From positions 1 through 64,000 of the forward strand of contig CALVEH010000004.1 of the NCBI GenBank assembly GCA_944326545.1: 64,000 nucleotides of DNA, in the 5' to 3' direction. The notes under the pieces are model-generated. The model worked only from the letters and a program-made list of their open reading frames with translations. It made no database searches and was not told the DNA's origin. Positions 1-31,837 of this stretch are shown piece by piece; the stretch's first letter is position 1; every line of letters begins with the position of its first letter. The stretch comes from Candidatus Gastranaerophilales bacterium (GTDB lineage Bacteria; Cyanobacteriota; Vampirovibrionia; Gastranaerophilales; Gastranaerophilaceae). The position numbers and the translations under genes were made by a program.

Positions 1-2214
1 TTAAGTGTTGGGATATTCATTGTACCTGCTTGGTTGTTTATCATTGACATTGAACCAGAGTTCAAGGTTAATGATTGTGATTGATTAAATACATCATCTC
101 TACCTAAATACAAGTTTGTATTATCAAGTGAGATATTTGCGTTGATTACATCGTTGTTAAGGATTACTTTACCTGTAGAATCGCCAGCGATTTTGAGGTC
201 GTAACTGCCTTTGATATCAGATGATATTATTTGTTCGTCTTTTAGGTCTATATATCCTGCTTGAATAAACATTGCTATAATTTGCTCATCAGGAACTTGT
301 TGCATATCAGGATCCATTTCTCTCATCTTGGCAATGAGATCTGATACTGTTGCATTTTCGTCAAGACCAATATCTGGCAATTGGGGTTTTAATTCATCTG
401 ATATTGCCATTGTACCTGATTTTGTCACAGTCCCGAATGCACTGTCAGTTCCTTGAATTTGATCATCAAATTGGATAGTTCCGTTTGTATTTGCGTTTAA
501 AGTTAAGGCTAAAAGAGTTGGGCTATTTCCTGTAGTTTCTGTTGTAATAGTTACTTTATCGCCTTCCAATGAATCAATTGTCGTATTTGTTTTTAAACCA
601 GACACATTGGGATCCAAATATATTGCATTTGGTGTTTTTACCCCGTTTGACTCAGTAAAGTTGCCTGAAAATACTGATTGACCTCCATTATTTGCAACAA
701 TGTTTAAATTTTGGTTTGTAAAAATAGCTCCGCCTTGTGCTATAGCTTTTTCTGACTTTGCGTAGTTATTTATAAATGAAGAATTGGTAATGTCACCAAT
801 AGTACCGTTATAATTGTAAATAGCACCACCCATAGCATCATTGGTTTCTGACTTAACATAGTTGTTAATAAACGAAGAATTAATTAAATTTTCTATCAAT
901 GCGTTAGAGTTATAAATAGCTCCACCTTGAACTTCATTAGATACTGATAGAGCATAGTTGCTTATAAAATCACCAGTAATATTACCTATTTTTGCACTTT
1001 TATACCAACCGCCATCATTATAAATAGCACCACCTTTGGTATAATCAAAAATGCTGGTATCAGAGGATTGAGCATAGTTGCCTATAAAATTACCGGTAAT
1101 ATTATCTATAGTTGCATCTGTACCCATATTGGAAATGGCCCCGCCGTAAGCACCGTCAGTATCCGAAAAAGCGTAGTTGTGAACAAAATCACCTTCAACA
1201 CTACCAATTTTGCCTTCTTCATTATTTATAGCACCACCATTTATGGCATAATGACTTTTAGCATAATTGCCTATAAAATTACCTGTAATTCTACCAATTT
1301 GACCTTTTTCATTATTTATAGCACCACCAGAAGAATCATCTGACCCAGTTGACCGACCAAGTACATAATTGCCTATAAAATCACCTGTAATATTTTCAAT
1401 TTTTCCTGCATTATAAATAGCACCACCAAAAGCGAAATTCGCTTGACCATAGTTACCTATAAAATCGCCTATAATGTTTTCAATTGACGAATTAAAACTG
1501 TTAAAAATTGCACCACCATAAAAACTAGAAGACCCACCAGTTACTATTAGATAGTTACCAACAAAATCGGCATTGATATTACCAAGTTTTGCATTACTAC
1601 CACTATTATATATTGCACCACCATATTGATCCTCTGGAGTACTGCCTGTTGTTTGGCATACAAACACACCTGTCGTCGTTTTAGAAGAATTGTCTGTTGA
1701 ATTTGTAAGTCTTGTTTGTGCGTCTGATAAATTATACTTATACGTTATAGTTTGACCTACAGGTTTTGTCGGGTCTTGTTTAAATTCAAGGTTTCCATCA
1801 GCGTTCTTTTCCCAGCCAAAGGTTAGCGTTGTATCCCCGTTTGGGTTGCCGTATTCTGTTTTATTCAAATCGACACGGTAATATACAGGAATAAGTTTAT
1901 TTTCTGTATCTGACCATTCGTATTTTGTGATTGTGTTTTCGCCAGCTTGGTCAACTTTTGTAAGTGTATAGGCGTGATTATCCTGAGGAACAGGGGCATT
2001 GTTTGCTAACACAGGTGCGATAACCAAAAACGACAAAGCTAAACTTATTACTGCAGTTTTGGCATAATGAATTAACTTGTGAGATTCTTCGGGTTTCACC
2101 CTCAGAATAACGTTAGAGAGTTGTTTTTTTAGGCTTTCAACGCCCCCCCCCGATTTTAAAATCGTTGTGGGACAAGGTTTTTAACCATTTCGTATTTCTT
2201 GTCTTCTTTGGCAT
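1..2214 (-). CDS. Pmp-like beta-helix surface adhesin, 5' part, frame broken at a G9 tract
   Basis: Partial: the 3' end lies outside the window. The open frame runs without a stop from a GTG at 2099 to base 1. It encodes a hydrophobic signal segment (HYAKTAVISLALSFLVIAPVLA) cleaved near ANN, then about ten degenerate repeats of 30-40 residues containing GGAIYN and F(I/V)xNYA (about 1625-735), then a passenger-like region rich in Asn, Thr and Gly. GGA(I/L/V) plus FxxN is the signature of chlamydial polymorphic membrane proteins, so a right-handed beta-helix exported to the surface is likely. The GTG has no ribosome site. An ATG at 2214 with GAGG upstream reads into the same frame only if one G is removed from (or two added to) the G run at 2143-2151. 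That would give an extended basic N-terminus typical of autotransporters. As read, the gene is out of frame from its best start. Confidence 0.75.
2143..2151 (-). repeat. G9 homopolymer tract, candidate phase-variation switch
   Basis: Nine consecutive C on the plus strand (G9 in the sense of the adhesin), about 63 bases after the ATG at 2214. With G9 the ATG frame stops a few codons later (GGG CGT TGA). With G8 or G11 it continues through VESLKK into the signal peptide and repeats. Distance check: 2214 minus 2099 is 115, one more than a multiple of three. Slipped-strand variation is the natural reading; a sequencing or assembly length error is the main alternative. Confidence 0.65.
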
Positions 2215-2329
2215 ATCTTTTGGTCCTCGTACTTTCGCACCTATATTTTTAATTCCCTTTTTTTACATTTTTAAACAAAATTTTGTAAAATTTTATCATT
2301 TCTTTACATGATTTCTGCAAAAAATAATT

Positions 2330-3880
2330 TTACACATTATTTTCTACAAAATTTCTATACTGCAAAGCTTGGGCGATATGAGCACTTTCTATATTTTCAG
2401 AGCCGTCTATATCAGCAATTGTTCTTGCAAGTTTTAATATTCTGTCATAAGAGCGACCTGAAAGATTAAATTTAGCAATTGCTGTTTTTAACAGGGTTTC
2501 ACACTTTTCATCAAGTTTACAAAAGATTTTTATAAGCTCGGCATTTAATTGAGAGTTAGTTAAAATAGGATAATTCTTGTAACGCTCGTACTGGATTTTT
2601 CGAGCTTTTACAACTCTTTTTCTTATATCTTCTGAAGTTTCTGATTTAATTTTTGTATTCAAAAGTTCCTCTGTTGTTAATCTTGGAACTTCTATCTGTA
2701 TATCAATTCTATCAAGCAAAGGCCCTGACAATCTTGAACGATATCTTTGTACCTGAAAATCTGTACAAGTACACTGTTTTTGAGTATCTCCCAAATACCC
2801 GCAAGGACAAGGGTTCATCGCACCCAAAAGAATAAAATCAGCAGGATACTTTATACTTGTTTGTGCACGAGAAATAACAACTTCACCATCTTCTAAAGGC
2901 TGTCTTAGAACCTCTAAAACCTGACGAGGAAACTCAACAATCTCATCTAAAAATAACACACCACGGTGTGCAAGCGTAATCTCACCGGGTTTTGGTCTTG
3001 AGCCACCGCCGATTATCCCAACAGCTGATGCTGTATGATGAACAGTTCTAAAAGGTCGTTTATTAATCAAAGGGCTGTCACTGTGTAAAAGCCCTGAAAC
3101 GCTATATATTTTTGTAAGCTCAATTGCTTCTTCCAACTCAAGCGGTGGCAAAATAGATGCAAAACTCTTAGATAAAAGCGTTTTACCTGACCCAGGAGGC
3201 CCCATCATCAAGATATTATGCCCGCCTGCTGCAGCAATTTCTAACGCTTTTTTAGCCTTAATTTGACCTTTAATATCTTTAAAATCAAACTCATAATGAG
3301 TTGTTGTATATTCGTTTAAGTAATCTTCTATATCAACTTCGCAAGTTTCTAACTCTTTTCTCTCCTCAGGTTTTGCAGAAAAATGTCTAACAACATCGCC
3401 TAACGTATCAGCACACAAAACTTTAACATCAGGTATTAATGCAGCTTCTTTGGCATTTTCTCTAGGAACAACAACCTGTTCAATTTTTAAATCTTTTAGC
3501 CCTGAAACAATAGGCAAAATACCGCTTACAGCCCTCAACGAACCGTCTAAAGATAATTCCCCTAAAAAAGCAGTATTCTTAATTAAATTTTCATCAACAA
3601 CACCGTCACGTGCCAAAATACCTATTGCGATTGGCAAATCATAATTTGTGCCCTCTTTTTTTATATCAGCAGGGGCAAGATTCACAACAACTTTTTGATT
3701 TGGAAAAGAAAAACCCGAATTTTTAATAGCTGAACGAACTCTTTCTTTTGCCTCAGAAACAGCGACATCAGGCAAGCCTACTATCACAACCGCAGGAATA
3801 GATTGAACTAAATCAACCTCAACCAAAATTTTATAAGCATCGATGCCAATAACTGTAGAAGTAATTACCTGAGAAACCAT
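2330..3880 (-). CDS. comM: ComM/YifB family AAA+ ATPase (Mg-chelatase-like)
   Basis: 516 residues, full length for the YifB/ComM family. The N-terminal Lon-protease-like fold (about 1-170) starts MVSQVITSTVIGIDAYKI. The Mg-chelatase AAA+ core has Walker A GPPGSGKT near residue 226 and Walker B LFLDEI. It also has the CPCGYLGD cysteine cluster and the C-terminal domain with the family motif SGRSYDRILKLARTIADI. ComM is a hexameric helicase that promotes branch migration during natural transformation in the species studied. It lies about 50 bp downstream of ruvA on the same strand, so a recombination-related operon with ruvA is plausible. No competence genes are visible here. Confidence 0.93.
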   Translation of the reverse strand: MVSQVITSTVIGIDAYKILVEVDLVQSIPAVVIVGLPDVAVSEAKERVRSAIKNSGFSFPNQKVVVNLAPADIKKEGTNYDLPIAIGILARDGVVDENLIKNTAFLGELSLDGSLRAVSGILPIVSGLKDLKIEQVVVPRENAKEAALIPDVKVLCADTLGDVVRHFSAKPEERKELETCEVDIEDYLNEYTTTHYEFDFKDIKGQIKAKKALEIAAAGGHNILMMGPPGSGKTLLSKSFASILPPLELEEAIELTKIYSVSGLLHSDSPLINKRPFRTVHHTASAVGIIGGGSRPKPGEITLAHRGVLFLDEIVEFPRQVLEVLRQPLEDGEVVISRAQTSIKYPADFILLGAMNPCPCGYLGDTQKQCTCTDFQVQRYRSRLSGPLLDRIDIQIEVPRLTTEELLNTKIKSETSEDIRKRVVKARKIQYERYKNYPILTNSQLNAELIKIFCKLDEKCETLLKTAIAKFNLSGRSYDRILKLARTIADIDGSENIESAHIAQALQYRNFVENNV

Positions 3881-12208: not shown

Positions 12209-12310
12209 ATCAAACTCCGTAACTTTTTATAAACTCATTATATCATCATGATTCCCAAAAACAGGTATTGTTAAACAAAAATAATTAAAATGTTAAATGA
12301 TATTTTAAAA

Positions 12311-28867: not shown

Positions 28868-31837
28868 CTATAGTTCATACCCTTCAATACGATTTTTAAC
28901 GTTTTTATCTCTTAGAGAGTTATCTTCTTCAGGGTTGAGGATGAACATTATTTCTTCTTCAATATTTTGAGTATCTTCTGTCTCTGGAGTGTTATTTATT
29001 TCAAGCAACTCATTTAAATAATCTTTATACAAAGCTAATATTTTATATAAAGCAGGTTTTTTATTTACGGTCAATTCCAATGGCTTGTCACTACCTGTTA
29101 TATCAAAAGACAGTTTTGAGGGAAACTTTTTAACGAGCAAAACTGATTCCATAATGTCTGCTAATTCTTCAAAATATAATGAATACAAACGTTCATTTTG
29201 GGTAGATTCAAACAATACATCAGAAAGTGCTTCTTCCATTGCCAAAGATTGCAATTTTAAAGATACAGGCATGTTTTGTTTTGGCAATATAACTATGTTT
29301 GCAATATCATCATATTTTTTTCTTTTAGTACATACTTGTTTTTCAAATTCATCGGGCTGTAAGTTTTCATATCTCAAATGTTTATTCACTTCTGCAAAAT
29401 ATTCTTTTGCAAAAACTTGAGGAACAAAACTATATTTTTGCAAGAATTTGTATTCTAAATTTTTATATTCTTTTTCTTTTTCAAAAGCATTTGGTTTATC
29501 AAGACAACAATTCATGTTTACATTCGGATGATCGCTTTCCCAAAAGATTTTAAATTTATTATAAAAAGCTTTTTTTACTTCTGGCGGATAATTGTTTTTG
29601 TCATCAAACAAAATCAATGCGCTTTTACCGAAGGTTTGTAAAAATTCTTCTAACTGTTTTGGAGTTGCTATATTTTCAAACATTGGTTTTTCTGAATGTT
29701 TAGCAAATAAATCATTTTTGACAAAAAGATTTGAACCGACACGTTCATTAACATCAGGTTGGTAAAAATAATTTTTAATAATTTTATCTATTTCAAAATC
29801 AGAAAGTGGCTGTTTGTATTCAGAATATAATTTAGACATTTTATTAACATCAATCTTCTTTTTAGTCACATTCAAATCAATATATTTCTTGGCATAGTTT
29901 GAATAAATACTAAAATCTTGACCTTTTGAATACATCAATAAAGCATTTTTAATCTCTGATGGAACTAGTTGAAATACATTCGGATTTTTGGTTAAAGAAT
30001 ACAACTCATCAGCCGCTGCTGCACACATAGGATTATTTATCCGTTGAGTTTTATCGCTACCCATGTGTGTTATTTTTTGCAATTTCAATCTTTCTTCTTC
30101 AGAAACATCATATTCAGACAATATAGCTTTTGTCCAAAGTTTCACATATTCTTTAGGAATTTCAGATAATGTTGTCTTAAAATAATCATCCAAATATTCT
30201 TGAGGCAGTTGTTTAACAATAGCAAAATGTTTGTTGTTATATGCAAACATAAACTCTTGCATATATTCCGGCATATCATTAGTTTTAGGTTCTTCTGTTA
30301 TCGATTTTAATGATTGAAGATTTTTTTCACTATCAATATCTTTTATACGCTGATATCTATCTCGATTTATTTCTTTTTTTAGTTCTTCAAATGTTCCTCG
30401 AGAAATTGCCAAATTAACTTTTTCCCAAGCAAGAATTATTTTTTTGCCAAACTCTTTTGCCTCATCTTCATGCAATGACCAAAACTCTGTCATAATTTCA
30501 GACTGATATTGGCTAAATTCTTCTGAAGAAAATAACAAATCAGCAGGTTTTGTAATCTGTTTTTGCTGCATAAAAGCAGAAAGCTCACGAATTAAATCTT
30601 TGCTATGATTCCAAGCATCAATCATGGCAAATCTCAAAGGTTCAGAACCTGATTTCATTTTTGATATGTAATCAGTTCTTTCTTCCGCTGTCATATTTGC
30701 CCAACGGGAAGATAAAATATGCATGCGTTTTAAATGCAAAGTATCTTTTTGAGCTTCCGACAGGTTTGCTTCAAACAATTTAAGATTGTTTGTTGCCCAT
30801 TTAACAAAAAGTTCATCTTGGCTTAATTTAGAAGAACCTGTTTTGATTCTTTGAGTCGGTTTTTGAGCAGAGTTAGTCTCAATTTGTTCATTATTTTTTG
30901 AAGAAGTCAACAAATCTTTCTTTTCTTGCTGTTTTTGCTCTTTCTTAAAATCTTTCAGCATATCAAGAGCAGTCATTTGGGCAGCTATCATATCCAATTT
31001 TTCATTTTGTGTATGAGAATTCCACCAAATTTCAAACTTTTCTACAGATTTTTTGGCTTTTGCAGTTCTTTCACTATCGCTTAATGATGCCCAAAAAGCT
31101 TTTTGCACTTCCGAGATATATTCTCCCACCTTGTCAGAATAGCCTTCTCTTGTATATCTTAAAGAGTTTAGGTAATTTTGATTAGGAAGCTTTATACCCA
31201 AGCCCTTGAGTGTACCGTCTTGAATATAAGCAGAATTAGGATGTTTAAATCTAAAATCAGCTTTAAAGTCCTCATCTAAATCTTTTTCTAAATCCTTATT
31301 TATTTCGTCATAGGTTTTTGCTTCAAGAAAGATTTTTTTAACAAGATAAACAGTTAAATTTTCTTTGCTTTTTAAAACACCTTGATTTGAAAGAGCAAGA
31401 AGCTCATCATTTTCTCTAACAGAAGCAAGCAAACCAATAGAAGCCTTTGTTTGCATCGGGTCTATCAGATTTTTGAATAACTCTTCGTCAGGAAAAAAAT
31501 TCTTAATATCTTGAATTGTTTTTGCATCTTTTAATAAAGAATATGCTCTTTTTTGAGCCTCAATAGGTGTTAATTTTGTTTTGTCATCCAGCGATTCAAC
31601 ATACCTTCTTACCGTAGAAGGCATTTTATTTTTGTTAAATTCGTAAAACCTATCAAGCCCCTTATCTACTCTAGAACCACCGAAAGAAACAAGATAGCCT
31701 CTCATATTAGAACCCATCACAGGCATTTTGGGTTCAGGTTTAAAAGTATTTGTAACTACAGATTTATTTGTTTTTGCTTTTTGCTCTCTGTTTTGTTTTT
31801 GAAAAGATAAAAAATTATTGATACTTCTTACATTCAT
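28868..31837 (-). CDS. Large soluble helical protein of unknown function with N-terminal SFG motif
   Basis: 989 residues, not recognised. A 60-residue basic, disordered N-terminus carries YLVSFGGSR at 49-55. The rest is charged and helical. Two or three related segments contain a Trp/acidic pattern (FWASLSDSERTAKAKKSVEKFEIWW; SSRWANMTAEERTDYISKMKS; TEFWSLHEDEAKEFGKKI). A Gln/Lys/Ser-rich linker (about 295-335) separates the first from the second. No signal peptide, membrane helix or catalytic motif. It starts 15 bases after the stop of the 345-residue gene on the same strand, so the two form an operon. Possibly an effector or scaffold; no evidence beyond architecture. Confidence 0.75.
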   Translation of the reverse strand: MNVRSINNFLSFQKQNREQKAKTNKSVVTNTFKPEPKMPVMGSNMRGYLVSFGGSRVDKGLDRFYEFNKNKMPSTVRRYVESLDDKTKLTPIEAQKRAYSLLKDAKTIQDIKNFFPDEELFKNLIDPMQTKASIGLLASVRENDELLALSNQGVLKSKENLTVYLVKKIFLEAKTYDEINKDLEKDLDEDFKADFRFKHPNSAYIQDGTLKGLGIKLPNQNYLNSLRYTREGYSDKVGEYISEVQKAFWASLSDSERTAKAKKSVEKFEIWWNSHTQNEKLDMIAAQMTALDMLKDFKKEQKQQEKKDLLTSSKNNEQIETNSAQKPTQRIKTGSSKLSQDELFVKWATNNLKLFEANLSEAQKDTLHLKRMHILSSRWANMTAEERTDYISKMKSGSEPLRFAMIDAWNHSKDLIRELSAFMQQKQITKPADLLFSSEEFSQYQSEIMTEFWSLHEDEAKEFGKKIILAWEKVNLAISRGTFEELKKEINRDRYQRIKDIDSEKNLQSLKSITEEPKTNDMPEYMQEFMFAYNNKHFAIVKQLPQEYLDDYFKTTLSEIPKEYVKLWTKAILSEYDVSEEERLKLQKITHMGSDKTQRINNPMCAAAADELYSLTKNPNVFQLVPSEIKNALLMYSKGQDFSIYSNYAKKYIDLNVTKKKIDVNKMSKLYSEYKQPLSDFEIDKIIKNYFYQPDVNERVGSNLFVKNDLFAKHSEKPMFENIATPKQLEEFLQTFGKSALILFDDKNNYPPEVKKAFYNKFKIFWESDHPNVNMNCCLDKPNAFEKEKEYKNLEYKFLQKYSFVPQVFAKEYFAEVNKHLRYENLQPDEFEKQVCTKRKKYDDIANIVILPKQNMPVSLKLQSLAMEEALSDVLFESTQNERLYSLYFEELADIMESVLLVKKFPSKLSFDITGSDKPLELTVNKKPALYKILALYKDYLNELLEINNTPETEDTQNIEEEIMFILNPEEDNSLRDKNVKNRIEGYEL

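Follow-up and report, generated by a model that had tools for sequence, protein, structure and literature searches.

The question raised by this locus is why a surface adhesin gene should lie out of frame with the start codon upstream of it, separated from it by a run of nine Gs. The gene occurs at the beginning of the window, by which we mean the whole 64,000-nucleotide stretch of DNA that was analyzed, on contig C4 of a Candidatus Gastranaerophilales genome (G000; 2.19 Mb, with a GC content of 33% in the window). Its coding strand is the minus strand, and the C9 run at positions 2143–2151 of the plus strand is a G9 run on the coding strand. The preliminary description had proposed that this tract, an ATG at 2214, and a GAGG upstream of it constitute a slipped-strand on/off switch of a Pmp-like adhesin, and all three elements are present in the sequence. 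The features of the region are given below.

2252–2276, minus strand: promoter match, GTTTAA-N13-GGGAAT, sigmaB-like, identified by pattern search; ends 38 nt 5′ of the ATG
2225–2228, minus strand: GAGG, Shine-Dalgarno-like, identified from the sequence and kept across cassettes
2212–2214, minus strand: putative ATG start, 10 nt from the GAGG
2137–2214, minus strand: leader ORF as assembled (G9, OFF), from the ATG to ... MPKKTRNTKWLKTLSHNDFKIGGGR and a stop, from translation at each tract length
2143–2151, minus strand: G9 homopolymer, the proposed slipped-strand switch, identified from the sequence; 9–13 among paralogues and orthologues
2064–2142, minus strand: spacer of 26 codons from the tract to the signal peptide, stop-free in the adhesin frame and in neither of the others
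2079–2112, minus strand: REP-like repeat CGTTATTCTGAG...GAAGAATCTCAC, read in frame, from the sequence and paralogue comparison; 1–4 units each
2004–2063, minus strand: signal peptide AKTAVISLALSFLVIAPVLA, from translation
3–2003, minus strand: Pmp-like passenger containing 10 GGAI and 10 FxxN repeats, from translation; the contig end cuts the gene

The region was translated at each tract length. The tract begins 63 nt into the frame of the ATG, that is, after the ATG and 60 nt of leader. With G9, this frame reads MPKKTRNTKWLKTLSHNDFKIGGGR and stops after 25 residues, and with G8 or G11 it continues via the signal peptide into the adhesin. The translations thus confirm the claim that G9 terminates just past the tract; the restoring lengths had been listed as G8 and G11, which is correct but incomplete, because the ATG is joined to the 713-codon adhesin frame at all lengths of 2 mod 3 (G8, G11, G14) and at no others. 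Read back from the tract in the 5′ direction, the adhesin frame is closed by a stop after about 30 nt, and no start codon lies between. The tract is therefore frame-shifting, as is expected of a simple-sequence-repeat contingency locus. RNA structure around the tract was not stronger than that of shuffled sequences (z = −0.13). The basic N-terminal stretch predicted to precede the hydrophobic core is about 50 residues long rather than 40. Interpreting it as an extended autotransporter signal is correct only in part, because the spacer is mostly a REP-like repeat that happens to read in frame. Such repeats, GTCATTCTGAGCGAA..CGAAGAATCTC, are read in frame within leaders at 1–4 units per gene (window 2079–2112; paralogue spacers L002 and L003), and the leaders of other species have different repeat families at this position.

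By its repeats, the window protein is Pmp-like: GGA(I/L/V) and FxxN each occur 10 times in the passenger as far as the window extends, and the corresponding numbers in full-length paralogues are 18 and 19, and 15 and 16. No Pfam or NCBIfam model matched the window protein, and only short repeat models from these databases matched in one paralogue, that on C1, which scored above the cut-off of POMP_repeat (TIGR01376). The full-length paralogues appear to end in an autotransporter-type domain. PF03797 matched three of six homologous C-termini (best E-value, 2e-11), the C-terminus of the window gene itself lying beyond the contig end, and the structure model of the C-terminal domain was poor (pLDDT 36). 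Membership of the chlamydial Pmp family proper was considered and rejected, as no overall relation beyond the short repeats was found.

Runs of G or C were counted by pattern searches. The window contains 63 runs of length 4, five of length 5, none of lengths 6–8, and one of length 9. In the whole genome, two runs of exactly 7, one of exactly 8, and seven loci with runs of ≥ 9 were detected, compared with an expectation for runs of ≥ 9 of 0.27 under a first-order Markov model or 0.01 when extrapolated from the run lengths in the window. The G9 tract is therefore longer than chance would produce, and the scarcity of runs of exactly 7 and 8 indicates that the long runs form a separate class. Five of the seven lie in the same leader of five adhesin paralogues, and the remaining two are in methyltransferase-like genes. 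Adjacent DNA-methyltransferase-like ORFs in an apparent prophage region have two G11 tracts close to their 3′ ends (G000:C7:28899–28909 and 29476–29486; L159) and are candidates for phase-variable methylation.

The genome encodes about 10 adhesin paralogues, and a block consisting of promoter, ATG, leader, and tract is common to five of them. The tract is G9 in the window copy (C4:2143) and on C10 (C10:71610), G10 on C13 (C13:30185) and C18 (C18:2121), and G13 on C1 (C1:335302), so all five are out of frame. The leaders on C4, C13, and C18 share all 63 nt but have tracts of 9, 10, and 10. The other family members in the genome have no tract and an ordinary ATG before the signal peptide; in one of these (C1:359659), the promoter is shared and the ATG stands in frame at approximately the matching place. 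The promoter-like pattern occurs at 14 genomic sites, compared with one for the reversed control, and half of the 14 precede members of the adhesin family, which suggests a shared regulon. The distance from the promoter end to the ATG was 38–39 nt in 10 of 10 cassettes measured, a constancy that favors the ATG 5′ of the tract being the natural start. Phase variation through promoter spacing is ruled out, because the tract lies about 100 nt 3′ of the promoter and 63 nt inside the reading frame. Several SigB/F/G-like sigma factors are encoded in the genome, none scoring above its family cut-off. A second promoter-like site, GTTTAA-N14-GGGAAT, was found at window positions 12251–12276 (minus strand). 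The exact cassette was not found in viral contigs.

We also analyzed relatives, the named matches being Candidatus Gastranaerophilales metagenome assemblies. A sister species (G017) has seven cassettes, with tracts of G10, G10, G12, G10, G10, G11, and G12. At four orthologous loci, whose far upstream flanks are 96.4–98.9% identical, the tracts in the window genome and in G017 are 10/10, 9/10, 10/12, and 13/10, so the length differs in three of the four pairs. Tract length thus varies between close relatives, as it does between the identical leaders with G9 and G10, which is a further property of a contingency locus. A fixed G8 in the relatives, which would have pointed to an assembly error, was looked for and is absent, the lengths being 9, 9, 10, 10, and 13 here and 10–12 in the sister species. 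The leaders are often less similar between orthologous loci than among different loci of one genome (the C1 leader differs from its orthologue on C3 at 12 of 63 sites), a pattern that suggests gene conversion among the copies and a faster change of tract length than of flanking sequence. The window adhesin follows comM (window 2330–3880; L313, L319), and in another species a cassette with a short G5 tract is found there. The adhesin is not syntenic, as comM is not followed by one in the sister species; the orthologous pairs compared above are accordingly those of copies other than the one in the window.

Across the genus, the same adhesin family has a poly-G or poly-C run 54–77 nt past the start. 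The leader of the poly-G form reads ...KPLSxxxF...GGG and that of the poly-C form ...LYxNILPPP.... A cassette was considered scorable when its downstream frame reached the signal peptide within the fetched DNA. Among the 28 scorable cassettes, five were ON (L115, L144, L151, L269, and L270) and 23 were OFF, the latter comprising 12 from other species, five from the window genome, and six from G017. Random lengths, with one-third ON, predict 9.3 ON cassettes (P(≤ 5) = 0.057), and the observed share is not far from this expectation. All 11 scorable cassettes of the window genome and G017 were OFF, for which the probability would be 0.012 if they were independent; the copies are related, and this value is uncorrected for the choice of clade. 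At L230 (= L202), which has a poly-C leader, the run is replaced by the non-repetitive TTGTCCACTCCCAAG, and the same ATG is in frame through the signal peptide. An allele that naturally lacks the tract and still reads through is an argument for genuine coding across this position. Many members of the adhesin family have no tract, and one leader-bearing locus has a G5 run and a downstream ATG, so the switch is not general in the family.

Taken together, these comparisons make it very likely that the G9 tract serves as the hypermutable part of a switch that phase-varies translation through slipped-strand mispairing. The proposal of the preliminary description is thereby supported, given the variable tracts in paralogues and orthologues and the lack of a conserved downstream start. 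Transcription would start from the shared GTTTAA/GGGAA promoter, translation would begin with the ATG at 2214, and the number of Gs would change when the strands slip and mispair during replication. At lengths of 2 mod 3 (G8, G11, G14), translation would cross the spacer and signal peptide, and the autotransporter adhesin would be made and exported (ON); at other lengths, including the assembled state, it would end a few codons past the tract (OFF). With at least five paralogues switching independently, many display combinations could arise within one clone. Three parts of this model are inferred from the sequences: a change of tract length within populations, initiation at 2214, and display of the adhesin by ON cells. 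Against this interpretation stand the uniformly OFF state of the 11 scorable copies in the species pair and the distance of 10 nt from the GAGG to the ATG, which is slightly long.

Three other explanations were weighed. If the gene were translated from a start 3′ of the tract, the tract would lie within an untranslated leader. This is very improbable, although the window spacer does contain an in-frame GTG at 2099, and the related locus with the G5 tract has an ATG directly after the run. The GTG, which is the sole in-frame start of that spacer, abuts a GAGG without spacing and is not conserved among the cassettes compared. Between tract and signal peptide, G000:C1 (with a frame of 1617 codons) and G017:C49 have no in-frame ATG, GTG, or TTG, which excludes a post-tract start for these two copies; a conserved start with its own ribosome site was thus absent where it was looked for. 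Moreover, the spacer is held stop-free in the adhesin frame as far as the tract: this frame has no stops in 10 of 10 cassettes, whereas each other frame has 2–10 (0 versus 4 and 2 in the window copy). For two 98-codon spacers consisting mainly of REP-like repeats, only 0.1–0.2% of shuffled sequences were stop-free (P = 0.001–0.002).

Programmed slippage of RNA polymerase or the ribosome at the G run would give constant partial expression, acting as a dial and not as a heritable switch. A fixed recoding site could explain the conserved position of the tract, and it is odd that every scorable copy in the species pair is out of frame if ON is ever needed. However, a recoding site should hold its length and frame, and the observed lengths of 9–13 fall in both off-frames; ON alleles are also present in the genus, and the occurrence of both poly-G and poly-C forms is a better fit to replication slippage. 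We therefore regard programmed slippage as very unlikely. Least probable of all is that the tract is an artefact of assembly or sequencing, such as false poly-G, or that the gene is a decaying pseudogene. Homopolymers are error-prone and the window copy is cut by the contig end, but the tract has unique flanks on both sides at five loci in this genome, it recurs at orthologous loci of a separate metagenome assembly, poly-C forms exist, and the downstream frames are intact over up to 1617 codons.

The proposed slipped-strand switch of the adhesin apparently belongs to a family-wide phasome. Of 146 genomes sampled from the family, 103 have a run of ≥ 11 Gs, and these represent 34 of 41 genera. 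In a phylum-wide sample tallied by hand, such a run was present in 83 of 107 family members and 52 of 137 others (odds ratio 5.7); the others mostly have larger genomes, and genomes with hundreds of matches may include poly-G sequencing artefacts. The run contexts examined, named by eye from translations, included signal-peptide proteins built on the leader-GGG plan as well as flagellins, type IV prepilin-like proteins, glycosyltransferases, and acyltransferases. Within the genus, Pfam identified AlgX-like genes and, in addition, flagellin, CheW, FdtA, pyruvyl transferase, and methyltransferase genes, the latter five being of kinds typical of phasomes. Type IV prepilin-like genes of other family genera (L294, L295, and L308) have a G10–G12 run a few codons past the start. 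In flagellin genes of relatives, runs of C11 to G12 are mostly out of frame (L150, position 1544; L292 and L293, position 1501), and phase variation of these genes is possible. A conserved AlgX-like membrane protein has a C10–C13 or G run at about codons 91–116 in several species (L114, L122, L126, L271, L291, and L309), conserved in position and mostly in frame. We somewhat favor the broader view that a large homopolymer phasome operates throughout the Gastranaerophilaceae, a family of non-photosynthetic gut cyanobacteria, and that the promoter–start–leader–tract block of this genus is an interchangeable cassette copied onto many autotransporter genes by gene conversion.

The homopolymer in the Pmp genes of Chlamydia pneumoniae is poly-G. 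A passage of PMC4514472, citing Grimwood 2001 and Pedersen 2001, describes the homopolymeric tracts of these genes (Pmp10 and others) as proposed expression switches. Both systems thus consist of paralogous GGA(I)/FxxN-repeat autotransporters with homopolymer tracts, but the present one is in a different phylum, its similarity is restricted to the short repeats, and its tract is placed ahead of the signal peptide, in a separate leader whose sequence is near-identical among paralogues and of which a poly-C form also exists. In Neisseria meningitidis, NalP and MspA have poly-C in the coding sequence with lengths of 6–15 and ON lengths confirmed by immunoblot (PMC3723659). The coding-sequence homopolymer and the ON state at one length in three are shared with our case, whereas those are single genes of a pathogen and here a leader cassette is shared across a paralogous family. 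Campylobacter jejuni likewise has many G/C runs in a small AT-rich genome, mostly in surface-structure genes (PMC6321876; PMC4965091; PMC8437040); in this genus, by contrast, surface autotransporters dominate, and the breadth is that seen in assemblies. The literature searched, which covered few subscription journals and included two core papers, yielded no link of Gastranaerophilales to phase variation or an autotransporter. Relative to that literature, the novelty apparently lies in the lineage and in the shared switch leader; the mechanism is the classical one of the C. pneumoniae Pmp and meningococcal NalP/MspA systems.

These results bear on how such genomes are read, because seemingly broken adhesin, flagellin, and glycan genes in them may be switched off and not dead. 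The switch also predicts measurable mixtures of tract lengths in existing gut metagenomes. Apart from a few commensals, the organisms in which multi-locus phase variation has so far been described are almost all pathogens, and a 2025 review notes that this apparent confinement may reflect database bias (PMC11868660). A family of little-studied gut cyanobacteria would offer an independent lineage for studying why such systems evolve.
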